From positions 1 through 31,009 of IMG/VR virus record IMGVR_UViG_3300046170_000010: a stretch of DNA of 31,009 bases. One strand, 5' to 3'. Origin of the DNA: a virus. Of the stretch, positions 5,698-26,429 are shown piece by piece; the first letter of the stretch is position 1, and each line of letters opens with the position of its first letter. The position numbers and the translations under genes are program-made. Under the pieces are notes generated by a model. That model had not been told where the DNA came from. It searched no databases and worked only from the letters and a program-made list of their open reading frames with translations.

Positions 5698-6035
5698 AAA
5701 AATTAATATTATGTGCGATATGTGTATTGGTTGCGGTCTCTGTATATAGTCAAGACGTAACAGTTCTGCAAATAAATGCAGAATGGAATAAAAAGAATAA
5801 TTACGATTTAAGTGATATTACAGGTGCTACTGTTAAGTTTAGTTACCTAAAAGACCAACCTAGAGATGTTCAGAACTCTATTATGGCTGTACCTGTAATT
5901 GTTATTATGGATAAATCAGGTAGAGTAAGAATGCAATATGTAGCAGATATATCTTTGCAAATTAAAGCTACTAGGTTAGAAATACAGAACACTATAAATA
6001 GAATTAATAAATCCAGAAGGGCAAGTACTAACTAA
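5694..6035 (+). CDS. Exported thioredoxin-like small protein, 113 aa
   Basis: N-terminus MKKLILCAICVLVAVSVYSQ is a signal peptide with a likely cleavage after the YSQ region; a Cys at residue 7 is within the hydrophobic core rather than a clear lipobox. The mature part (VTVLQINAEWNKKNNYDL...AVPVIVIMDKSGRV) follows a thioredoxin-fold pattern: beta strand VLQINAEWN, then the cis-Pro-like VPVIVI strand and a DKSG turn. The CxxC active site is absent, so it is not a redox enzyme. Start overlaps the previous stop (ATGA), and the stop overlaps the peptidase start. A periplasmic role in lysis or superinfection exclusion is possible but unproven. Confidence 0.7.
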   Translation: MKKLILCAICVLVAVSVYSQDVTVLQINAEWNKKNNYDLSDITGATVKFSYLKDQPRDVQNSIMAVPVIVIMDKSGRVRMQYVADISLQIKATRLEIQNTINRINKSRRASTN

Positions 6036-6518
6036 TGAATAGAATAAGTAAACATATAAGCTACAAAGAAGCTACTAGAAGTGCAACAGCTTTACGTTTA
6101 GGCATAGATAATGTGCCTAATGAATATCACTTACAAAATATGGAGATGGTAGCTAAGAAAGTATTTGAACCTTTAAGAGAAGCTGTTAATGCACCAATAA
6201 AAATAAACTCATTTTATAGATGTGAAGAACTTAATAAAGCTATTGGAGGCAGCAGTAAAAGCCAACATTGTCAAGGACGTGCTATTGATATTGACGATAT
6301 TTATGGTCACGTTAGTAATGCTTATATGTATTATTACATTAAAGATAATCTCGACTTTGACCAACTTATTTGGGAGTTTGGCACAAATGATAGTCCTGAT
6401 TGGGTTCACGTTCAGTTATGTAGATGAAGATTCTAATAGAAAAAGATGTTTAAGAGCAATAAGAGAAAATGGTAAAACTAAATATATAGATATAACAAAT
6501 GAGCAAAATACTAAGTAA
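6035..6518 (+). CDS. Peptidase M15 family endolysin (D-Ala-type), frameshifted near its end
   Basis: Zn-peptidase of the M15 type that cuts peptidoglycan peptide bonds. The motif SxHxxGxAxD is intact (Ser76, His78, Gly81, Ala83, Asp85), followed by a Glu in LIWEFG (Glu114) and the WVHV motif with the third Zn ligand His125. The raw frame stops soon after WVHV at 6427. Removing one T of the TT at 6411-6412 gives WVHVSYVDEDSNRKRCLRA and continues to the stop at 6516-6518, the C-terminus expected of the family. Repaired length is 160 aa. It overlaps the holin gene by 20 bases, a typical lysis pair. It has no signal peptide, so export depends on the holin. Confidence 0.88.
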
Positions 6519-7038: not shown

Positions 7039-7124
7039 TTCTTGCTTATAGCTAAACTTGCACAACCTAATAAAGTTGGACGGTGCTTGGAACAGGTATT
7101 ACTTTCTTTCTTTTTTACTAGGTT

Positions 7125-7168
7125 TTTTCTTTCTTTTTCTTTTTACTCTTTTTCTTTTTCTTTCTTTT
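7125..7168. repeat. Perfect 20-nt polypyrimidine mirror repeat (H-DNA/triplex candidate)
   Basis: The left arm 7125-7144 is T4 C T3 C T5 C T5. The spacer 7145-7148 is ACTC. The right arm 7149-7168 is T5 C T5 C T3 C T4, the exact mirror of the left arm (20 of 20). The tract extends upstream as T/C-rich sequence to about 7101. The complementary strand is pure purine over each arm. Such homopurine-homopyrimidine mirror repeats are the classic substrate for intramolecular triplex. It sits between late lysis genes and the early region. Confidence 0.85.
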
Positions 7169-7720: not shown

Positions 7721-7738
7721 TATTGCAATGAAGCAATA
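7721..7738 (+). promoter_or_regulatory. Leader hairpin or operator, copy 1 (TATTGC-AATGAA-GCAATA)
   Basis: Perfect 6-bp inverted repeat around the 6-nt loop AATGAA, 6 bases after the -7 box and 18 bases before the ATG at 7757. A second copy with the same loop pattern (AAYGAA) occurs at 16781-16800. Confidence 0.6.
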
Positions 7739-9011: not shown

Positions 9012-9927
9012 ATGCTAATAAACTTTGACCAACAGATTGATAAACTACAACAAATCAGGTCAGGGAAGATAGTAGAAGGTTTAGCATTAGGATTTCCAGA
9101 AATAGACGAATACTTTAGATTTAAACAAGGTAACTTTTTAGTATGCTTAGGTCACGCTAATGTAGGTAAGACTACTGTGATCTTATATATGATGTTATTG
9201 TATTCATTAAAGCATAATATTAGATGGCTTGTATTTTCTAGTGAGAATGAAGCACATAGTATTATTAGAAAACTAATAGAATTCCTGGCAGCAAAACCTA
9301 TAAACAAAATACCTGAAGAAGAATTTGAAAAGCACAAGAGCTTTGTGTTTAATCAATTTAAAATAATAGATTCTAATGAGCTTCATACTTATAAGACTTT
9401 ATTAGAATTAGCTACAAGTATTAAGAAGGCTTGGAACTATCAAGGATTTCTTATAGACCCTTACAACTCTTTAATGAAAGATAGAGAGATGTTGAAAGGT
9501 ATTAACTCTCACGATTATGACTATGAAGCAACATCTGAAATAAGATTATTCTGCAAGACTCATAATGTATCAGTATGGTTAAATACTCACGCAGCTACTG
9601 AATCATTAAGAAAGAAACATTCTAATTCTGATGAATATGCAGGACATCCTATTCCTCCAATGGCTAGTGATGTAGAAGGAGGAGGTAAGTTTGTTAATAG
9701 AAGTGATGAGTTTCTAGTAATCCACAGATATACTCAACACCCTACAGATTGGATGTATAACCATATACACGTTAGAAAAGTAAAAGACATTGATACAGGA
9801 GGAAGACCTACTCCATTAGACAGAACCTATTAAACTTAAATCAATACTTAACAATGTAGGTTTCCAAATAAATGGTAATAATATTATAACACCAACTCTT
9901 ACAGAACAAATAAACTTACCATTTTGA
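9012..9927 (+). CDS. DnaB/RecA-like P-loop ATPase (replicative helicase or recombination ATPase), frameshifted near its end
   Basis: Walker A GHANVGKTT at residues 47-55; Walker B-like FLIDP with Asp149; SSEN after the second strand and a NTHAATE motif near residue 190 fit the DnaB C-terminal/RecA core. The N-terminal primase-binding domain of DnaB is missing. The raw frame stops at 9833. Removing one base near 9822-9825 (for example one A of the AA at 9824-9825) continues the protein through PIKLKSILNNVGFQING to a TGA at 9925-9927 that overlaps the TTG start of the next gene. Repaired length is 304 aa. Likely unwinds DNA or loads replication proteins for the phage. Confidence 0.82.
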
Positions 9928-10403
9928 AAACACCTGTAGAATTAGCATATGAGAAACATAACCAATGGGTAGAGATAGTACAAACCTTTGGTGGCTTAAA
10001 CAAAGAGGAGTGTGAAGATTTGGTACAAACTATGTATATTCTGCTAATAAAGAATACTCAAAAAGGAATAGACTATTTATATAAAGATGAGATAAACTAT
10101 TATTATGTTTTTAAAATACTTAGAGGATTGTATGTAGATTTGATTAGAAAGAAAAGTAAAGTAAAACTGATTAGTTTAGAAAACATAGAACCTGTTACAG
10201 AAATAGATCATAACAATTATGATGAGGTCTATAATAAGCTCCAGGATATTTTAAAAGATATGTACTGGTACGATAAAAAAGTATTTGAAATAATAGAAGA
10301 TGGTACTAACATAAGTGAGCTATCAAGAAAAAGTAAAATAAGTTATTACAGCTTATACAATACTTATAAGAAAGTTAAACAGAAACTAAAAGATAATTTA
10401 TGA
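9924..10403 (+). CDS. RNA polymerase sigma-factor-like protein, 159 aa
   Basis: TTG start at 9924 overlaps the repaired ATPase stop (TTGA). The N-terminal half (NKEECEDLVQTMYILLIK, then YYYVFKILRGLYVDLIRKK at about residues 56-77) resembles sigma region 2, including the helix that binds core and the -10 element. The C-terminal half (YDKKVFEIIEDGTNISELSR...YYSLYNTYKKVKQKLKD) resembles region 4, a helix-turn-helix. The size and two-part design are those of ECF-like phage sigma factors. It is the natural candidate to read the AAAAT-N13-CGATATAT elements before the late genes. A non-sigma HTH protein remains possible. Confidence 0.7.
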   Translation: MKTPVELAYEKHNQWVEIVQTFGGLNKEECEDLVQTMYILLIKNTQKGIDYLYKDEINYYYVFKILRGLYVDLIRKKSKVKLISLENIEPVTEIDHNNYDEVYNKLQDILKDMYWYDKKVFEIIEDGTNISELSRKSKISYYSLYNTYKKVKQKLKDNL

Positions 10404-10760: not shown

Positions 10761-11166
10761 GATACATCTATACGAACAAGCAGTAGTTCAGATACTTAAT
10801 ATGGACACTTGGGATTTAAAATGGGCAGGTAATGGCTTTGAGCATTATGATGCTATAGGTAAAACTCCTAAGGGTCACGATTGTGTAATAGAAATGAAGT
10901 TCAGGAATAAATACTATAAAGAAAAGATGTTAGAGGTTTATAAGTATGAACAGTTAATTAGTATGGATTCCGAAATAGTAAAGCTCTACTTTGTATCAGA
11001 CCCTAAAGGTAACTATCTATATTGGTTAAACTATTTAGAAATGCCAGAACCTGTAGAGATGTATTGTCCTGACACTACTATGTGGACTAAGAAACGATTA
11101 CTCAAACCTGTATATCTTCTAACAGAACAACAAGCAAGTATTATAAATAGGGAGTCATATAATTAA
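10747..11166 (+). CDS. PD-(D/E)XK nuclease-like protein, 139 aa
   Basis: The core FEHYDAIGKTPKGHDCVIEMKFRNKYY holds Asp35 and Glu49-x-Lys51, the minimal D...ExK active site of the PD-(D/E)XK superfamily, in a strand-turn-strand setting. A Tyr-rich helix and a strand (IVKLYFVSDPKGNYLYW) follow, as in small endonucleases or Holliday-junction resolvase-like proteins. The ATG at 10747 (MGLSKIHLYE) is preferred to the upstream ATG at 10732 because it starts the helix before the core. Substrate unknown; a role in DNA repair or recombination with the NinG-like protein is inferred. Confidence 0.6.
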   Translation: MGLSKIHLYEQAVVQILNMDTWDLKWAGNGFEHYDAIGKTPKGHDCVIEMKFRNKYYKEKMLEVYKYEQLISMDSEIVKLYFVSDPKGNYLYWLNYLEMPEPVEMYCPDTTMWTKKRLLKPVYLLTEQQASIINRESYN

Positions 11167-11168
11167 AT

Positions 11169-11199
11169 TTTGTTAATAACTTTAAAAGAGTTATATTAG
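11169..11199 (+). promoter_or_regulatory. Host-type promoter TTTG-N19-TATATTAG
   Basis: TTTG at 11169-11172 and TATATTAG at 11192-11199, spacer exactly 19 bases, close to the Bacteroidetes -33/-7 consensus. It lies in the short gap between 11166 and the ATG at 11225 and would drive the second early operon. Confidence 0.65.
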
Positions 11200-11224
11200 C
11201 CTGTATAACTTTAAAAACAAAATT

Positions 11225-11449
11225 ATGAAACATAACCACAATGCTTTTGAAAATCAAATATTTAATCATTTTAGAGAAAAAGTAAAATCAATAAATGCTG
11301 CAATAGAATTATTAGTTGAGCATAATTATAAAATTATTGATTTAGAAAATCAAATTATAGATAAGGATAATTTACAGAATATAGAAAAGAGATTTAGTTT
11401 TGATTATAAAAGAACACCTAAAACAAGTTATGAAAAAAAGACAATATAG
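11225..11449 (+). CDS. Small helical hypothetical protein, 74 aa
   Basis: First gene after the 11169 promoter. The product MKHNHNAFENQIFNHF... is mostly helical, with a His/Asn-rich start and a basic end (RFSFDYKRTPKTSYEKK). No domain recognised. Overlaps the start of the next small gene by 20 bases. Confidence 0.6.
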   Translation: MKHNHNAFENQIFNHFREKVKSINAAIELLVEHNYKIIDLENQIIDKDNLQNIEKRFSFDYKRTPKTSYEKKTI

Positions 11450-11558
11450 ATCAAATCAAGGTAGAAGTCCTGAAAAAGAAGAACAGATATTTAATGTTCT
11501 AAAAGTAGGATTCATAGCATTAATCGTAGCTACTATTAGTTGCATAATACTTAACTAA
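11430..11558 (+). CDS. Single-pass small membrane protein, 42 aa
   Basis: ATG at 11430; stop overlaps the next ATG (TAATG at 11556-11560). The N-terminal 20 residues are charged (MKKRQYRSNQGRSPEKEEQ), then one hydrophobic helix FNVLKVGFIALIVATISCII runs to near the C-terminus. Likely an inner-membrane protein with its basic end in the cytoplasm. An early small membrane protein could alter the host envelope or block superinfection; this is inference. Confidence 0.6.
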   Translation: MKKRQYRSNQGRSPEKEEQIFNVLKVGFIALIVATISCIILN

Positions 11559-11842: not shown

Positions 11843-12587
11843 GAATTATGAGCATAAAGAACTATTATCTAAAATGGATGATGATTCTTTCTACTATGGA
11901 GAATTAAACAAACTAGCTTTAAGCAGTTCTTCACTTAAACTATTATTATCAAGTCCTAAGACTTATAAGCACGTTACTAAGTATGGTAATCCTGAAACAC
12001 AACCTTTAAGAGATGGATGGTTATTTCATACAGCTATATTAGAACCTCACGTTTTTAATGCACAGATATTTGTAGATGTTGCAAGTAAGAATACTAAGGC
12101 ATATAAACTAGCTAAAGAGGAACACGGTAAAGTATTTACAATGTCAGAAAAGAATAAAGCTGAAAAGTTAGCAGATGCATTCTTTAGAAATGAACACGCA
12201 CTTAAACTAATAACAGATTGTGAGTTTGAAGTTCCTGCAATAGGAAATGTATGTGGTTATCCTTTTAGAGGTAAAGCAGATGTTCTTGGAAAAGATAGAA
12301 TAGTAGACTTAAAAACTACAACAGACATAAAAGGCTTTCCTTATGCTGCAAAGAAATATGGATATGATGTTCAATGTTATTTATATTGTAATCTATTTAA
12401 TGTGGGATATGAACAATTCAAATTCTTAGTAATGGACAAAGGAAGTTTAGATATTGGTGTATGGGATTGTTCTGAAGAATTTTACTTAGAAGGCAAAAGA
12501 AAAGTAGAGAAGGCAGTAGACATCTTTGAAACCTTCTTTGTTAATGGAGCAGACTTAGATGATTATGTATTAACAGGTACGCTATGA
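11820..12587 (+). CDS. PD-(D/E)XK exonuclease, RecE/Exo VIII-like, 255 aa
   Basis: Resembles the phage-type 5'-3' exonuclease of the RecE/PDDEXK_1 group used in recombination. Visible landmarks are SSSSLKLLLSSPKTYKH (residues 35-51), GWLFHTAILEP with His70, GKADVLG with Asp154, VDLKTTT with Asp163 and Lys165, and the QxxxY motif at Gln185-Tyr189. All expected catalytic residues are present. It would resect DNA ends for strand annealing, though no recognisable annealing protein lies adjacent. The end overlaps the methyltransferase by ATGA. Confidence 0.85.
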   Translation: MIQLLDGKNYEHKELLSKMDDDSFYYGELNKLALSSSSLKLLLSSPKTYKHVTKYGNPETQPLRDGWLFHTAILEPHVFNAQIFVDVASKNTKAYKLAKEEHGKVFTMSEKNKAEKLADAFFRNEHALKLITDCEFEVPAIGNVCGYPFRGKADVLGKDRIVDLKTTTDIKGFPYAAKKYGYDVQCYLYCNLFNVGYEQFKFLVMDKGSLDIGVWDCSEEFYLEGKRKVEKAVDIFETFFVNGADLDDYVLTGTL

Positions 12588-14104
12588 TATACAATGAAGA
12601 TTGCTTAGATAAACTCAAAGAGTTAGATGATAATTCAGTAGATAGTATTGTTACTGACCCTCCTTATGGTTTATCTTTTATGGGCAAGAAGTGGGATTAT
12701 GATGTTCCAAGTATAGACATTTGGATTGAGTGTTTGAGAGTTCTAAAACCAGGTGGACATCTTTTAGCGTTTGCAGGTTCAAGAACTTATCATAGAATGG
12801 CTGTTAGAATAGAAGATGCAGGGTTTGAAATTAGAGATCAGATAATGTGGATATATGGTAGTGGGTTTCCTAAATCACATAACATAGGTAAAGCAGTAGA
12901 TAAACAAGGTGGCAATTCACTTGGTAAAGAAGTTGCTGACCTTGTAAAGAAAAAAAGATTAGAAATAGGTTTATCTACTATACAATTAGCTGAACTTGGT
13001 AAATTTTATGGAAAAACAAATCACGGAGGCTCTGTATCTAATTGGGAAACTGGTAGGGGTCGTATAACACCAGAACAATTTAATAAACTTATAGAAATAT
13101 TAAATTTAGAAAACAATCCTATTATTGAAACTAAACGAGAAGTTATTGGCAAACAAACAAACATAGCAAATAAGGATAACGAAAATACAGGTCGTTATCA
13201 ATGGAATACAGAAGGACAAAAAAGAAAAGAAAGTATAGACATAACAAAAGGCAATTCAAGATGGGAAGGCTGGGGAACTGCATTAAAACCTGCTCACGAA
13301 CCTATTGTAATGGCAAGAAAACCTTTTAAAGGAACAGTAGTTAATAATGTATTAGAATGGGGAACTGGTGGAATAAATATAGATGCGAGTAGAATTGAAA
13401 ATGAAAATAAGGCGATTAGAATAACAAACAATAATAAAAATATTTATGGAGGTAGTTCTTACTTAAAAAGTAAAACTGTTCAAAATACTTCAAGAGACGG
13501 AAATCCATCTGGACGTTTCCCTGCAAACATAATCTTTGATGAAGAAGCTGGTAAAATCCTTGATGAACAAAGTGGAATTAGTAAAAGTAGCAATACCAAA
13601 ATAATTAGAAAAAAATTAGGCAGTTTTGGTATGCCAAATGATCAAACACTTTATTATTCAGATAAGGGTGGTGCATCTCGTTTTTTCTATTGTCCTAAAA
13701 CATCAAAAAAAGATAGGAACGAAGGATGTAGTGAGTTAGAAGAAAAAGAACAACCACATTCAACTAATATGAAATGTGCTAATTGTAATAAACTTATTTT
13801 ATCTGGCAATGGTGATAGTTGCAAATGTGAAAACAAAGTTGAGGTAAGACATAAAGCAAAAAATCATCACCCAACAGTTAAACCAACTGATTTAATGTTA
13901 TATCTTATTAGGTTAGTAACTCCTGAAAGAGGGATAACACTTGATCCTTTTATGGGTTCTGGTTCAACAGGCAAAGCTGCAGTAAGAGGTGGGTTTGATT
14001 TTATAGGTATTGAAAGAGAAAAAGAATATATTGAAATAGCAAAAGCAAGAATTAAATATGAACAAGAAAATCAAAAACCTGATTCACAAATAAAATTATT
14101 TTGA
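12584..14104 (+). CDS. DNA methyltransferase (N6/N4 class) with embedded HTH and Zn-ribbon, 506 aa
   Basis: Amino-methyltransferase of the DPPY type. Motif IV DPPYG is at residues 25-29 and motif I-like DPFMGSGSTG at 454-463, a circular order of the beta class, with the HHPTVKP segment just before the SAM site. Two inserts split the catalytic core. Residues about 113-175 (KKKRLEIGLSTIQLAEL ... SVSNWETGRGRITPEQF) form an XRE-like helix-turn-helix. Residues 398-415 (CANC ... CKC) form a four-Cys Zn-ribbon. The inserts could read or gate the target site. Protects phage DNA from restriction or alters gene regulation; target unknown. Confidence 0.88.
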   Translation: MIYNEDCLDKLKELDDNSVDSIVTDPPYGLSFMGKKWDYDVPSIDIWIECLRVLKPGGHLLAFAGSRTYHRMAVRIEDAGFEIRDQIMWIYGSGFPKSHNIGKAVDKQGGNSLGKEVADLVKKKRLEIGLSTIQLAELGKFYGKTNHGGSVSNWETGRGRITPEQFNKLIEILNLENNPIIETKREVIGKQTNIANKDNENTGRYQWNTEGQKRKESIDITKGNSRWEGWGTALKPAHEPIVMARKPFKGTVVNNVLEWGTGGINIDASRIENENKAIRITNNNKNIYGGSSYLKSKTVQNTSRDGNPSGRFPANIIFDEEAGKILDEQSGISKSSNTKIIRKKLGSFGMPNDQTLYYSDKGGASRFFYCPKTSKKDRNEGCSELEEKEQPHSTNMKCANCNKLILSGNGDSCKCENKVEVRHKAKNHHPTVKPTDLMLYLIRLVTPERGITLDPFMGSGSTGKAAVRGGFDFIGIEREKEYIEIAKARIKYEQENQKPDSQIKLF

Positions 14105-14226: not shown

Positions 14227-14642
14227 AAAAGAGAGCTTTAGATATAGCAAGACAAGTAAGTAACCTTGCAGAGTTAAATCCATTTGACAATACAAGACAA
14301 AGAGAATATGTAGAGGTAAGAGCTTTGATCTGCTTAATACTAAACAAATATCTTGGAATAGGATTAACGAGAATAGCAAACTTCTTCAAGGAGAATGGAA
14401 AGAATATGCATCACGCTAATGTATTGCATTTAGTAAGGAGTTTTGATACTTACAAGTTCTACAATAAAAACCTGGACAAGTGGTTAGACATAGTTATCAA
14501 TGATATTGATGATGTGGGAAATGAAAACAAAAGAACACTTATAAGACATCGTATTAAATATCTCACTAATAAAGACATAGATGAATTAGCTCTTTACACA
14601 GAGGATATGTATAATAAAGTTCTGCAAAAAGAAGAAGCGTGA
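14223..14642 (+). CDS. DnaA domain IV-like DNA-binding protein, 139 aa
   Basis: The segment REYVEVRALICLILNKYLG, then GLTRIANFFKENGKNMHHANV, then LHLVRSFDTYKFYNK matches the layout of the DnaA C-terminal domain (helix, basic loop, then the DHTTVLH-like signature helix). The AAA+ ATPase part of DnaA is absent. Probably binds a specific DNA site, for instance a phage origin, or competes with host DnaA. The C-terminal third is helical with acidic residues. It sits between the two methyltransferases. Alternative: an unrelated HTH regulator. Confidence 0.6.
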   Translation: MKKRALDIARQVSNLAELNPFDNTRQREYVEVRALICLILNKYLGIGLTRIANFFKENGKNMHHANVLHLVRSFDTYKFYNKNLDKWLDIVINDIDDVGNENKRTLIRHRIKYLTNKDIDELALYTEDMYNKVLQKEEA

Positions 14643-15256
14643 AAATATATAATAGAGATTGTTTAGAAGCTATGAAAGATATGTCAGATAATCAGTTTGA
14701 CTTGGCTATTGTTGACCCTCCTTATGGATTAAAAAGATTACAAAAAGGTAGCTTGAGACTTGGGGGTGTAAAAGGAAACTATGCAAATAAATTAAGTTGG
14801 GATATAAAACCTAAAGACATTTTTTTTAAAGAATTAATAAGGGTTTCTAAAAATCAGATAATATGGGGTGCAAATAATTTTATTCTACCTCCAACAGAAT
14901 ATTTTTGTATATGGAACAAAAAACAAACAGTAGATAATTTTGCTACTGCTGAATATGCTTGGGTAAGTATGGGTTTAAAAAAACCTGCTAAAATATTTGA
15001 ATATTCAATACACAAACACAATCACACAAATAAAATACACCCTACACAAAAGCCAGTAAAACTATATGAATGGTTACTTATGAATTATGCAAAAGAAGGA
15101 GATACAATACTTGATACTCATTTAGGTTCTGGAAGCATAGCTATAGCTTGTCATAATCTTGGATATGATTTAACAGGATATGAAATAGACAAAGATTACT
15201 ATGAAGCTGCACTAAAAAGAATTGAACAACATAAGGCACAAAAAAGATTATTCTAA
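14639..15256 (+). CDS. Second DNA methyltransferase (DPPY type), 205 aa
   Basis: GTG start overlaps the previous stop (GTGA). The product begins MKIYNRDCLEAMKDM, with motif IV DPPYG at residues 26-30, the target segment KIHPTQKPVKLYEWL, and motif I ILDTHLGSGSIAIAC, followed by GYDLTGYEIDKDYYE. Compact beta-class enzyme without inserts, close to small phage N6-adenine methyltransferases. It would modify a target different from the 506-aa enzyme. Last gene before the terminase unit. Confidence 0.88.
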   Translation: MKIYNRDCLEAMKDMSDNQFDLAIVDPPYGLKRLQKGSLRLGGVKGNYANKLSWDIKPKDIFFKELIRVSKNQIIWGANNFILPPTEYFCIWNKKQTVDNFATAEYAWVSMGLKKPAKIFEYSIHKHNHTNKIHPTQKPVKLYEWLLMNYAKEGDTILDTHLGSGSIAIACHNLGYDLTGYEIDKDYYEAALKRIEQHKAQKRLF

Positions 15257-15280
15257 AATTTAATTTATTTTTCGATATAT
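15254..15280 (+). promoter_or_regulatory. Late promoter-like element, copy 1 (AAAAT-N13-CGATATAT)
   Basis: AAAAT at 15255-15259 and CGATATAT at 15273-15280, spacing identical to four other copies. It precedes the terminase genes; here the ATG is 39 bases downstream, and the leader holds a perfect palindrome. Confidence 0.6.
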
Positions 15281-15291
15281 AGATATACAGT

Positions 15292-15305
15292 TTTGATTAA
15301 TCAAA
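15292..15305. promoter_or_regulatory. Perfect 14-bp palindrome TTTGATTAATCAAA
   Basis: Exact inverted repeat in the leader between late element copy 1 and the terminase small subunit ATG. Good candidate for a dimeric protein's operator, or for a short hairpin; absent from the other four late elements. Confidence 0.55.
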
Positions 15306-15318
15306 GTTTTTCAAAGAT

Positions 15319-15558
15319 ATGAAAATAGAAAATAGAGGAGGTAAAAGAGAAGGTTCAGGTAGAAAACCTAAGCAAGAGGAAGTACAATTAATAGAGAAAC
15401 TTACTCCCTTAGAACCTTTAGCATTTGAAGCACTTAAAGATGGCTTAGAGAAAAAGGACTTTAAGTTTGTTCAGCTTTACTATAATTACTTTGCAGGTAA
15501 ACCAAAAGAAACAAAGGATATAACTATAAACGAAGATGTACCTTTATTCATTGATTAA
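15319..15558 (+). CDS. terS: Terminase small subunit-like DNA-binding protein, 79 aa
   Basis: Begins MKIENRGGKREGSGRKPKQEE; the GGKREGSGRKP motif is the usual opening of phage small terminase-like proteins. A helical part (EPLAFEALKDGLEKKDFKFVQLYYNYFAGKPKE) follows, and it ends in an acidic tail. It is short, with no full HTH evident. Stop overlaps the large subunit start (TAATG). It would recognise the genome for packaging. Confidence 0.75.
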   Translation: MKIENRGGKREGSGRKPKQEEVQLIEKLTPLEPLAFEALKDGLEKKDFKFVQLYYNYFAGKPKETKDITINEDVPLFID

Positions 15559-16727
15559 TGTTTACAAAAACAGAAGCAGTAATAAAACTTAGAGAATTAG
15601 GTAGTAGAATAAGAATAGTAAGAGGCGGTTCTTCTGCAGGTAAAACTGTAGCTATTCTAATGATACTTATTGACTATGCTATTAAAAACAATAACAAAGA
15701 AATTAGTGTAGTAGCAGAATCTGTCCCACACTTACGTAGAGGAGCTTTAAAGGACTTTCTTAATATACTTAAACAAACTAATAGGTATGATGAGAGAAAG
15801 TTCAACAAATCAACTCTAAAGTATCAATTCAGCACAGGTTCTTATATAGAGTTCTTCTCCACAGATCAACCTGACAAATTAAGAGGAGCAAGAAGGACAG
15901 ACTTATTTATTAATGAGTGTAATAACATTCCTAGCTTTGAAGTGTATCAACAACTTGCAGTAAGAACATCAGGTACTGTGTGGTTAGATTACAACCCAAG
16001 TAACATCTTTTGGGTAGATAAAGAACTAATAGGACAAGAAGATACAGACTTTCTTACATTAACATATAAAGACAATGATAGCTTACCATCTTCAATAGTA
16101 AAAGAAATTGAGAAAGCTAAAGATAAAGCTAAGACATCTACTTATTGGGCTAATTGGTGGAAAGTATATGGACTAGGAGAGATAGGTAGTTTAGAGGGAG
16201 TATGTATTCCTGATTGGAAATATATTGATAGTATTCCTTATGAAGCTAGGTTATTATGTGGAGGATTGGATTTTGGATATAGTATAGACCCTAGTACGAT
16301 TATCTTATTATACAAATGGAACAATGCTTACATATTTGATGAGATACTATATCAAAAAGGAATGCTTAATAGAGACATAAGTAGATTTCTAAAAGACAAT
16401 AGTATAACTACTCATCTATGGGCAGACTCAGCAGAACCAAAGAGTATTAGTGAGATCAGAGCTTATGGACATAAAATTTCAGGAGTAACTAAAGGCAGAG
16501 ATTCAGTAGTCTATGGTATCAACCTAATAAATCAAAATGAAATCTATGTAACCTCCAGCTCTAAGAATCTAATCAAAGAACTACAAGGATATATATGGGC
16601 TAAAGATAAAGAAGGTAATAACATACAGAAACCTACAGGAACTCATCCTGACTGTATAGATGCAGCTCGATATTGTTTAATGATGCAGTTAGAGAATCCT
16701 AACAGAGGTAGATATACTATTCAGTAA
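15558..16727 (+). CDS. terL: Terminase large subunit, PBSX-like, 389 aa
   Basis: Packaging motor and nuclease. Walker A GGSSAGKT is at residues 23-30; a Walker B-like strand ends in LFINECNN near 117-124; SGTVWLDYNPSN is the coupling region. The C-terminal RNase H-like nuclease has the acidic triad context GLDFGYSIDPST (about 236-247), HLWADSAEP (about 287) and HPDCIDAARY (about 366). Length suits the PBSX/Terminase_3 group in flavobacterial phages. Ends at 16727 with no clear terminator; the next unit has its own promoter. Confidence 0.93.
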   Translation: MFTKTEAVIKLRELGSRIRIVRGGSSAGKTVAILMILIDYAIKNNNKEISVVAESVPHLRRGALKDFLNILKQTNRYDERKFNKSTLKYQFSTGSYIEFFSTDQPDKLRGARRTDLFINECNNIPSFEVYQQLAVRTSGTVWLDYNPSNIFWVDKELIGQEDTDFLTLTYKDNDSLPSSIVKEIEKAKDKAKTSTYWANWWKVYGLGEIGSLEGVCIPDWKYIDSIPYEARLLCGGLDFGYSIDPSTIILLYKWNNAYIFDEILYQKGMLNRDISRFLKDNSITTHLWADSAEPKSISEIRAYGHKISGVTKGRDSVVYGINLINQNEIYVTSSSKNLIKELQGYIWAKDKEGNNIQKPTGTHPDCIDAARYCLMMQLENPNRGRYTIQ

Positions 16728-16742
16728 AATATTTATTAAAAA

Positions 16743-16775
16743 TTGTTAATAATTAAAATAATAGTTATATATTAG
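16743..16775 (+). promoter_or_regulatory. Possible promoter (TTG-N22-TATATTAG)
   Basis: TTGTTAATAA at 16743-16752 and TATATTAG at 16768-16775. Both boxes match those of the 11169 promoter, but the spacer is 22 rather than 19. Followed by leader hairpin copy 2 and four small ORFs. Confidence 0.5.
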
Positions 16776-16780
16776 CTATG

Positions 16781-16800
16781 TAATTGCAACGAAGCAGTTA
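16781..16800 (+). promoter_or_regulatory. Leader hairpin or operator, copy 2 (TAATTGC-AACGAA-GCAGTTA)
   Basis: Seven-pair stem with one T-G pair and 6-nt loop AACGAA, placed like copy 1 just after a -7 box. The G-T pair where copy 1 has A-T keeps RNA pairing but breaks DNA symmetry, so an RNA hairpin is slightly favoured. Confidence 0.6.
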
Positions 16801-16818
16801 TATAAACAAACAGAACAA

Positions 16819-16983
16819 ATGGAAATAAATAAAATAACAATAGAAGATAAGTTCAAGCTTATAAACATAGAAGCAACATTAAAAATGTTGTTAGAACATT
16901 CAGATCTGCCTAAATATCAGAAAGACTGGGTTGCAAAATCCTATAAAAATATTTTAGACTTTAAATATCAAAATGATATATAA
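16819..16983 (+). CDS. Small helical hypothetical protein, 54 aa
   Basis: First ORF of the small cassette between the terminase and the tail genes, starting 18 bases after the leader hairpin. The product MEINKITIEDKFKLINIEAT... is helical, with no membrane segment or known domain. Stop overlaps the next start (TAATG). Confidence 0.65.
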   Translation: MEINKITIEDKFKLINIEATLKMLLEHSDLPKYQKDWVAKSYKNILDFKYQNDI

Positions 16984-17090
16984 TGAAAGAGATATATGTA
17001 AAAAAGATAACTGCAAGTGCTTTAGAAATGCCTGTAGAAAAAAGAAAACAATTAATAATAGAATTAACTAAATCATTACTAAAAAAATAA
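16983..17090 (+). CDS. Very small basic protein, 35 aa
   Basis: Overlaps the previous stop. The product MKEIYVKKITASALEMPVEK... ends SLLKK and is amphipathic. Placement inside a tight chain of overlapping starts is the main support; function unknown. Confidence 0.5.
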   Translation: MKEIYVKKITASALEMPVEKRKQLIIELTKSLLKK

Positions 17091-17092
17091 TT

Positions 17093-17197
17093 ATGTATAA
17101 GAAATTTCTAAAAGAAGACCCAAACAACTGGAAATGGCTAATAGCTATTCACGTTTTTTTATTTACAATATGTTTAATTTTAATGATAGATTTATAA
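17093..17197 (+). CDS. Very small single-pass membrane protein, 34 aa
   Basis: ATG two bases after the previous stop; stop overlaps the next ATG (TAATG at 17195-17199). A charged N-terminus (MYKKFLKEDPNNWK) is followed by one helix WLIAIHVFLFTICLILMIDL. Likely inner-membrane. Early expression from the cassette promoter would fit an envelope-modifying protein, but this is inference. Confidence 0.55.
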   Translation: MYKKFLKEDPNNWKWLIAIHVFLFTICLILMIDL

Positions 17198-17451
17198 TGA
17201 AAAGAATAACAAATATAATAGAAGTTGAATGTGAAAACTTTAGCTTAGATGTAAAATATTGGTATAAAAAACTTAATGAACAAGAAGATGAAGTGGACAT
17301 TAAAAGAGTTTATATGAATAGTTATACAACACAAGAAAATGAAGTTATTAGAATAAATAAAAGAATTATACCAAATAATCAAAAACTTCCATCATCTTGG
17401 GAAGAAATAATAGTACAAGAAATATCTAATGATATAGAAAATTTCATTTAA
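17197..17451 (+). CDS. Hypothetical protein, 84 aa
   Basis: ATG 17197 is chosen because it overlaps the upstream stop; the frame is open further upstream (from 17134), but that stretch overlaps the membrane protein. The product MKRITNIIEVECENFSLDVKYW... alternates strands and ends in an acidic helix (SSWEEIIVQEISNDIENF). No family recognised. Last gene of the cassette, followed by a terminator. Confidence 0.65.
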   Translation: MKRITNIIEVECENFSLDVKYWYKKLNEQEDEVDIKRVYMNSYTTQENEVIRINKRIIPNNQKLPSSWEEIIVQEISNDIENFI

Positions 17452-17478
17452 TAATTAAGTAAAGGTTGTTTTGTTTGG

Positions 17479-17512
17479 AAAGGGGGTAGCAGAAATGTTA
17501 CCCTTTTTTTTT
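17479..17512 (+). terminator. Rho-independent terminator closing the small-ORF cassette
   Basis: AAAGG-GGGTA, loop GCAGAAATGT, TACCC-TTTTT: a five-pair GGGTA/TACCC stem extended by G-T and A-T pairs, then a run of nine T. It isolates the cassette from the tail unit. Confidence 0.8.
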
Positions 17513-17523
17513 GTGTATATGTC

Positions 17524-17550
17524 AAAAATGGTTTTAAAATTTCGATATAT
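17524..17550 (+). promoter_or_regulatory. Late promoter-like element, copy 2
   Basis: AAAAAT at 17524-17529 and CGATATAT at 17543-17550. The ATG of the tail chaperone gene starts 6 bases after the box, directly after the cassette terminator. Confidence 0.65.
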
Positions 17551-17556
17551 ATATAT

Positions 17557-18207
17557 ATGAAAGTAGAAATAAATGTGCCTAATGATTTAAAAGAAATCAA
17601 GCTGCACCAATATCAGAAGTTCCTAAAGCTCCAAGAAAAGAGTGTAGATGAAAAGTTCTTAGCTTCTAAGATGATAGAAGTCTTCTGTGGTTTAAAGCTA
17701 ACAGATGCTCTTAAAATGAAAGTAGCAGATGTCTATGCTATTACAGGAATACTTGGAGATATGTTCAATCAGAAACCTAAGCTAGTAAAGAAGTTTAAAA
17801 TGAATGGGGTAGAATATGGATTCATACCAGACTTAGATCAGATGAGCTTAGGAGAATACATTGACCTGGACACTTACTTAGGAGATTGGGAAAATATACA
17901 TAGAGCTATGAATGTTCTATATAGACCTATCAAACATAAGTATTCGGAAAAATACAATATAGAGGAGTATAATATAGATCATCCTGAGAAGATGCAAAAT
18001 ATGCCAATGGATGCAGTATTAAGTTCTGTGCTTTTTTTTTATCATTTAGGAATCGACTTGTCGAAAGCTATGATGAATTATTTGGAGGACAAACAGGAAA
18101 CGAATTTAGTGCAATATCTCAATTCGGAACTAAATGGGGATGGTATCAATCAATTTACGGACTCGCTCAAGGAGATATTAGACGATTTGAAAATATCACT
18201 AAGTTAA
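17557..18207 (+). CDS. Tail assembly chaperone, unshifted product (gpG-like), 216 aa
   Basis: Helical protein beginning MKVEINVPNDLKEIKLHQYQKFLKL, of the kind found in Bacteroidetes phages before the tail genes. It probably coats the tape measure during tail assembly, as lambda gpG does. After the slippery site at 18033-18039 the zero frame continues through YHLGIDLSKAMMNYLEDKQE to a stop at 18205-18207, ending QFTDSLKEILDDLKISLS. The same bases code the shifted product, so this 3' part is dual-coding. Confidence 0.75.
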   Translation: MKVEINVPNDLKEIKLHQYQKFLKLQEKSVDEKFLASKMIEVFCGLKLTDALKMKVADVYAITGILGDMFNQKPKLVKKFKMNGVEYGFIPDLDQMSLGEYIDLDTYLGDWENIHRAMNVLYRPIKHKYSEKYNIEEYNIDHPEKMQNMPMDAVLSSVLFFYHLGIDLSKAMMNYLEDKQETNLVQYLNSELNGDGINQFTDSLKEILDDLKISLS

Positions 18208-26403: not shown

Positions 26404-26429
26404 AAAATAATTAAATAAACTCGATATAT
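26404..26429 (+). promoter_or_regulatory. Late promoter-like element, copy 4
   Basis: AAAAT at 26404-26408 and CGATATAT at 26422-26429, four bases before the scaffold candidate's ATG at 26434. Same geometry as copies 3 and 5. Confidence 0.65.

Follow-up and report, generated by a model that had tools for sequence, protein, structure and literature searches.

Morons of the lambdoid type are described as extra DNA that carries its own promoter and terminator and lies between genes adjacent in relatives (PMC4378225). Two other described systems are close to this arrangement: the plasticity regions of Pseudomonas Mu-like phages, some of which carry anti-CRISPR genes (PMC4378225), and the anti-defence genes of archaeal viruses (PMC11065993). 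In the titles and opening lines of abstracts from the literature on morons, flavobacterial phage hotspots, early leader hairpins and leaderless mRNA, no description of the slot reported here was found.

Here, the virus record IMGVR_UViG_3300046170_000010 from IMG/VR was analysed over its whole stretch of 31,009 bases (the window), in which positions 16743-17512, between late genes, contain a predicted promoter of the flavobacterial host type, a hairpin of the mRNA leader, four very short ORFs and a terminator of the intrinsic type. We consider it quite probable that this locus is an exchangeable moron-type accessory cassette in a fixed slot between the terminase large subunit gene (TerL) and a structural gene of marine flavobacterial siphophage relatives, presumably serving counter-defence or host takeover. 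Like lambdoid morons as portrayed in PMC4378225, it shows deviant base composition, signs of horizontal origin, an own promoter and terminator and an insertion between neighbours. Unlike the usual one-gene moron of that account, it holds several genes in one fixed slot that has accommodated over 100 gene families, its promoter and leader are conserved and common to different cargoes, and no integrase was found in 25 records. With the Mu-like plasticity regions (PMC4378225) it shares fixed sites and zero to several short accessory ORFs, but it belongs to other phages and hosts and has a standard promoter-hairpin or leaderless start before unrelated first genes; its likeness to the regions with anti-CRISPR genes is one of layout. 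As in the archaeal viruses (PMC11065993), small genes of different kinds follow one conserved early promoter region ('early' being inferred here), whereas the present case concerns phages of bacteria, with a single compact, polycistronic slot placed among the late genes and an RNA hairpin or leaderless start. The archaeal-virus genes are anti-defence genes; an indirect hint of such a role here is that the slot of some relatives holds Mom, methyltransferase and SspD-like genes. Accessory slots are thus already known, and what is new is that unrelated cargo genes have a promoter-hairpin or leaderless start in common.

The nearest cultured relatives by TerL are Flavobacterium phages (48.7% identity). 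Relatives of the gene following the slot occur in Nonlabens phages and in contigs named Flavobacteriaceae, Winogradskyella and Flagellimonas, and in one labelled Epsilonproteobacteria. Since the relatives of both genes are mostly flavobacterial, the host is likely to be a marine flavobacterium. For the comparison of junctions between TerL and the next gene two sets were used. Set 1 was obtained from two scans yielding 118 junctions with 91 distinct gaps, leaving out locus L001 and junctions with a TerL match ending before residue 380. Set 2 comprised 46 distinct junctions, including eight loci added by hand, at least seven of which had been found via the hairpin, so that both sets together contained 137 distinct junctions. 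Distinct gaps are those of non-identical sequence; near-identical ones were kept, and the counts are therefore not counts of independent events. Because set 2 was seeded from a hairpin-bearing contig and supplemented by hand, its hairpin frequency of 28/46 is overstated, and set 1 gives 15/91.

Table 1. Features of the cassette, its flanks and related elements in the window
Feature	Position	Strand	Remarks
Early-region unit resembling the cassette	11164..11558	+	same promoter type; ORFs 11225-11449 and 11430-11558 (membrane peptide)
Second copy of leader hairpin core	7723..7736	+	in leader of first early operon
Candidate phage sigma factor	9924..10403	+	might read late element
Late element	15255..15284	+	ahead of small ORF 15319-15558 and TerL
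Terminase large subunit (TerL), left flank	15558..16727	+	phrog_2, E 9.6e-40
Predicted sigma-A-type promoter	16743..16775	+	TTG 16743-16745, TATATTAG 16768-16775; scores 31.4 with model trained on relatives
Leader hairpin, stem-AACGAA-stem	16777..16804	+	-11.1 kcal/mol, z -3.9; at predicted mRNA 5' end
ORF1, 54 aa	16819..16983	+	predicted two-helix hairpin; family in 30/137 distinct junctions; pN/pS 0.24 (one pair)
ORF2, 35 aa	16983..17090	+	family in 23 junctions; pN/pS 0.24
ORF3, 34 aa, single-pass membrane peptide (MYKKFLKEDPNNWKWLI...)	17093..17197	+	family in 30 junctions, window copy excluded; pN/pS 0.32
ORF4, 84 aa	17197..17451	+	predicted four strands plus helix; family in 14 junctions; pN/pS 0.48 (three pairs)
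Intrinsic terminator, cassette end	17477..17510	+	-17.7 kcal/mol, z -4.25
Late promoter-like element, AAAA-N-TTTCGATATATA	17525..17554	+	belongs to downstream gene: backbone, not cassette
Structural (tail-type?) gene, right flank	17557..18207	+	conserved beside slot in relatives

An earlier sequence-only reading of the window had proposed a self-contained unit with a promoter-like pair, a leader hairpin, four overlapping tiny ORFs, one of them encoding a single-pass membrane protein, and a strong terminator, inserted between terminase and tail genes. Hairpin and terminator were both recovered as stable folds (Table 1), and ORF3 has the single hydrophobic stretch expected of the membrane protein. 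All four ORFs are present; a one-base overlap (TAATG) joins ORF1 to ORF2 and ORF3 to ORF4, but two bases separate ORF2 from ORF3. The terminase on the left is well supported, whereas the 'tail' assignment on the right is weak: the gene at 17557-18207, directly preceded by AAAATGGTTTTAAAATTTCGATATATATAT at 17525, has its best match in phrog_32199 (unknown function, E 5.5e-20) and matches phrog_166 (tail) with just E 0.035. The GC content of the cassette ORFs (22.4%) is lower than that of TerL (32.7%) and the next gene (33.3%); the early small ORFs have 23.1%, and in base composition the cassette ORFs are like early ORFs 11225/11430 and unlike TerL.

For the promoter, a generic sigma-70 scan was uninformative (15 sites against 16.3 expected) and was replaced by a model built from the junctions of relatives only, with the window excluded and four Markov-shuffled windows as control. 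Matches were obtained at 16737 (31.4), which comprises the proposed TTG and TATATTAG pair, and at 11164 (23.7), and no other position reached 19.8, the highest score among the shuffles. The flavobacterial sigma-A -7 box is reported as TAnnTTTG, spanning -12 to -5 (PMC9723704), and the cassette box is close to this consensus; from this spacing we infer a transcription start (+1) near 16780.

Among the 91 distinct junctions of set 1, the gap between TerL and the next gene ranged from 33 to 1699 bp. The comparison of terminase-tail junctions for presence and absence, as the sequence-only reading had suggested, found eight of them empty, with 33-35 bp holding the late element alone, and 83 filled with changing small genes; one of the 46 distinct junctions of set 2 was empty. 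Constant presence of the same ORFs in every relative, named by that reading as evidence against its proposal, is not what was seen, since the slot content varies. Terminators were detected in 80 of the 83 filled and none of the eight empty gaps of set 1 and in 43/45 filled against 0/1 empty gaps of set 2, and in ten mononucleotide shuffles of the filled set-1 gaps in 0 or 1 of 83. Filled and empty sites end alike in the late element CTAAAAC...CGTTATATA, so the insert consists of the terminator plus all that lies upstream of it. Across these junctions, some relatives have an empty slot and others one with unrelated small genes, the late element is part of the backbone, and the cassettes bring their own predicted terminator and mostly their own predicted promoter. 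No cassette is present in P12024L and P12024S, two Nonlabens phages in which TerL shares one base with the gene after it, and in a Flagellimonas onchidii contig the slot is apparently empty (about 38 bp, judged by eye).

The variability is also visible among close relatives. The gaps of 22 loci whose TerL is 94% identical or more measured 397-1699 bp, and in these loci TerL aligned over 100% and the ORF region 16819-17451 over only 9-75%. Other junctions rightward from TerL were steadier, the largest maximum being 733 bp (27083-to-28104, with a minimum of already 643); variable junctions were also present in the early region of the genomes in this comparison. The junction between 14639 and TerL (window 15257-15557) is variable too (276-3304 bp, 30 distinct gaps), so that TerL is flanked by variable sites on both sides, the left one being bounded by the methyltransferase gene 14639-15256. 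This gene and that at 12584-14104 are two N6_N4 DNA methyltransferases of the early region, and a long pyrimidine-rich tract of TTTCTTT repeats lies at 7098-7166 between late and early regions.

The 25 records searched, possibly fragments, contained no PF00589 integrase, which bears on whether the cassette is a moron of lysogenic conversion, active mostly in the prophage state. Classical morons frequently belong to that type (PMC4378225, PMC7067206), and a 319-kb Flagellimonas contig, its slot apparently empty, includes a related structural block; with no integrase in the records, we hold this explanation to be improbable.

Cargo genes are shared between phages that are otherwise distant. In set 2, 18 of the slot ORFs share 80% identity or more with slot ORFs of set 1; in the phages concerned, TerL has 27-39% and the following gene 50-62% identity to the window counterparts. 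Family F25 reaches 99% identity between the two sets. L264, L267 and L273, in which TerL is about 28% and the next gene about 61% identical, contain a counterpart of ORF1 with 93% identity across 54 aa, and such near-identity beside an unrelated terminase indicates that cargo moves horizontally between these phages. A mobile element was considered and rejected, as no shared element ends were seen. In L142, L104, L112 and L253, for example, TerL types of 27-39% identity stand beside the same conserved next gene, and the terminase itself therefore seems to have been swapped among relatives. The proposed moron-type anatomy thus holds up in its own promoter and terminator, lower GC, variable or absent content in relatives and horizontal exchange. 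Measured against the moron definition, the insertion separates genes that are adjacent in relatives (the 33-35 bp empty sites and P12024L/S), the terminator at 17477-17510 is its own, the promoter is predicted by sequence score and the base composition deviates, as is usual for morons. A single coding region is not found, as there are four ORFs, and gaps with one ORF exist (e.g. L045, L078); because the source calls a single coding region only 'usually' present, the locus is filed as a moron-type slot and not as a textbook moron.

A connection to the early (DNA-metabolism) region is apparent at several levels. As the only model matches above shuffles are those of the cassette and of 11164, the cassette by its predicted promoter resembles an early-region unit. 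Relatives of the window early ORFs 11225 and 11430 were found inside 3 and 39 of 128 filled slots, respectively, and members of slot families F2, F6, F18, F35, F58, F87 and F92 were detected in the early regions of relatives as well. Early expression of the cassette is suggested by four features: its promoter type, its leader, its base composition and the presence of related genes in early operons. Late read-through from the TerL unit (element 15255) would also be expected, because the terminator scan of the window found no terminator between TerL and the cassette. This absence and the location on the late-gene strand would suit small ORFs that are late accessory genes for assembly, lysis or the virion, transcribed by read-through from TerL with promoter and terminator incidental, and a single-pass membrane peptide could serve lysis. 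The empty slots, the match of promoter and leader to the early units at 11164 and 7723, the cargo relatives in early operons and a lysis-suited M15 peptidase elsewhere (6035-6427) make this explanation unlikely. A lysis cassette in particular was rejected on account of the variable slot and this peptidase.

The cargo is diverse. Set 1 contained 239 ORFs, forming 37 families with at least two members and 56 singletons, and both sets contained 515 ORFs in 119 families over the 137 distinct junctions, some families probably being spurious minus-strand frames; the window copy is missing from the ORF3 family count (Table 1) as a longer frame displaced it during clustering. Many close relatives contain ORF2 and ORF3 again, so the cassette appears to be semi-constant in part, and other cassettes end with different membrane peptides or none. 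Six tested families with more than one pair gave pN/pS values of 0.23-0.48, and two one-pair families 0.24 and 0.33; given the values of 0.24-0.48 for the families of the window ORFs, these are by this measure real genes. The opposite case, neutral or decaying sequence in an unselected spacer, would be in keeping with the AT-richness and variability of the slot and with the ease with which open frames arise there (a short hydrophobic ORF on the minus strand in 42/83 gaps). It is highly improbable in view of the purifying selection indicated by pN/pS, of proteins 82-99% identical across otherwise divergent phages and of confident predicted folds for ORF1 and ORF4. Since short hydrophobic ORFs on the plus strand occur in 54/83 gaps against the 42/83 of the minus strand, their number alone is not evidence and only conserved families count.

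None of the four window proteins was recognised, in line with the sequence-only reading. Family searches gave nothing convincing (best phrog_28758, E 0.03), and PDB sequence searches no match for the ORF4 family and E 0.44 or worse for the ORF1 family. AlphaFold2 predicted a helical hairpin for ORF1 (pLDDT 93) and four strands plus a helix for ORF4 (pLDDT 87), and structure searches with both returned no match at E <= 0.001. ORF3 could act in exclusion or takeover. Slots of relatives carry Mom (PF25680, E 6.7e-39), a DNA methyltransferase (N6_N4_Mtase, PF01555, E 4.5e-39), Pyr_excise (E 5e-6) and, in seven set-1 loci, a PAPS-reductase/SspD-like protein (phrog_424, E 5.4e-21; PADLOC SspD, E 3.4e-13). 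The recognisable DNA-modification genes adjoin TerL in the outer part of the slot and do not stand behind the promoter-hairpin; cargo of the promoter-led part is almost entirely without named relatives. No Aca-type DNA-binding regulator was seen among the Pfam families listed for 84 and 34 representatives, the first list comprising 25 of 45 families.

A promoter-like motif was present in 63 of the 83 filled set-1 gaps (shuffles: mean 12.1, maximum 20), with some of these matches not at the 5' end, and missing from 20. In all 34 promoter copies where the hairpin core was found it lies 3-4 nt past the predicted +1, and in 30 of the 34 the hairpin has the same offset from the -7 box. Stem variants (TTGC...GCAG, TTGC...GCAA, TTAC...GTAA) still pair, which supports an RNA form of the hairpin. 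Behind the conserved promoter-hairpin, about 20 different first genes without relation to one another begin, their ATG lying 18-30 nt past the core; the number of 20 was reached from 26 first-gene families by discounting six, five without promoter and one representing the early operon. A pattern scan of the viral collection yielded at least 121 hairpin matches, mostly unrelated sequence, of which those in AT-rich, promoter-bearing context were kept, and a comparison with Rfam gave no match. With at most one mismatch, the core has one window site besides the cassette, at 7724, and beyond the slot the one place where these phages were found to carry it is their first early operon. L182 and L145 each contain a second promoter with a variant hairpin (TTACAACGAAGTAA), in L182 as a second copy within one slot.

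Cassettes without hairpin provided 49 distinct promoter contexts, in which, counted from predicted and not measured transcription starts, the ATG stood exactly at +1 in 10, one base past it in 2 (inside the F6 gene and discounted), at 2-14 in none, and otherwise at 15 or more or was not found. Leaderless mRNAs account for only 5.5% in F. psychrophilum (PMC9723704). Candidate leaderless phage mRNAs with the first-gene ATG at the predicted start are found in L017, L018, L021, L060, L082, L275, L281, L300 and others.

The flanking late genes had been said to use a different element, which was confirmed with a model built without the window. Copies were located at 17525 (32.9), 15255 (26.4), 28708 (23.9) and 24614 (18.5), and a weak one at 26404 (14.1, where shuffles reach 13.6), all on the plus strand of the late region. 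The small ORF 15319-15558 behind the copy at 15255 is by position the terminase small subunit. In relatives, 76/83 filled gaps (shuffles 0) have the late element at most 40 nt from the gene that follows, and 8/8 empty gaps contain it. The product of ORF 9924-10403, which is 27% identical to Nonlabens phage P12024L_35 (annotated sigma-70 region 2) and matches phrog_1740 (sigma factor) with E 0.0013, may read the CGATATATA late element.

In the preferred reading as an exchangeable accessory cassette, host RNA polymerase would read the sigma-A-type promoter early, producing an mRNA that is capped by a 5'-terminal hairpin, as predicted for the window, or leaderless. The terminator would insulate the unit, and a phage sigma factor would then restart transcription of the structural genes at the late element. 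The cargo would act on the host by counter-restriction or counter-defence, by takeover, or by exclusion via the small membrane peptide. Early timing and host action are most likely, judging from the predicted elements and the gene comparisons. More tentatively, and with more doubt than confidence, the slot might be a standardised expression socket, in which a host-read early promoter and a leaderless or AAYGAA-loop hairpin start serve interchangeable counter-defence genes of phages with unrelated terminases and the hairpin core marks this gene class. The core may also be a binding site for a factor from the phage or the host.

Phages of marine flavobacteria are abundant, and next to nothing is known of the genes with which they counter host defence. 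The variable content of the slot suggests a rapidly changing toolkit for handling the host, rather than components of the virus particle, and a fixed slot with recognisable promoter and leader offers a simple address for collecting more than 100 candidate gene families. The slot would moreover offer a natural comparison between leaderless and hairpin-capped mRNA in a phylum without Shine-Dalgarno initiation. If the socket reading is true, searches with the hairpin core would uncover new anti-defence proteins in flavobacterial phages.
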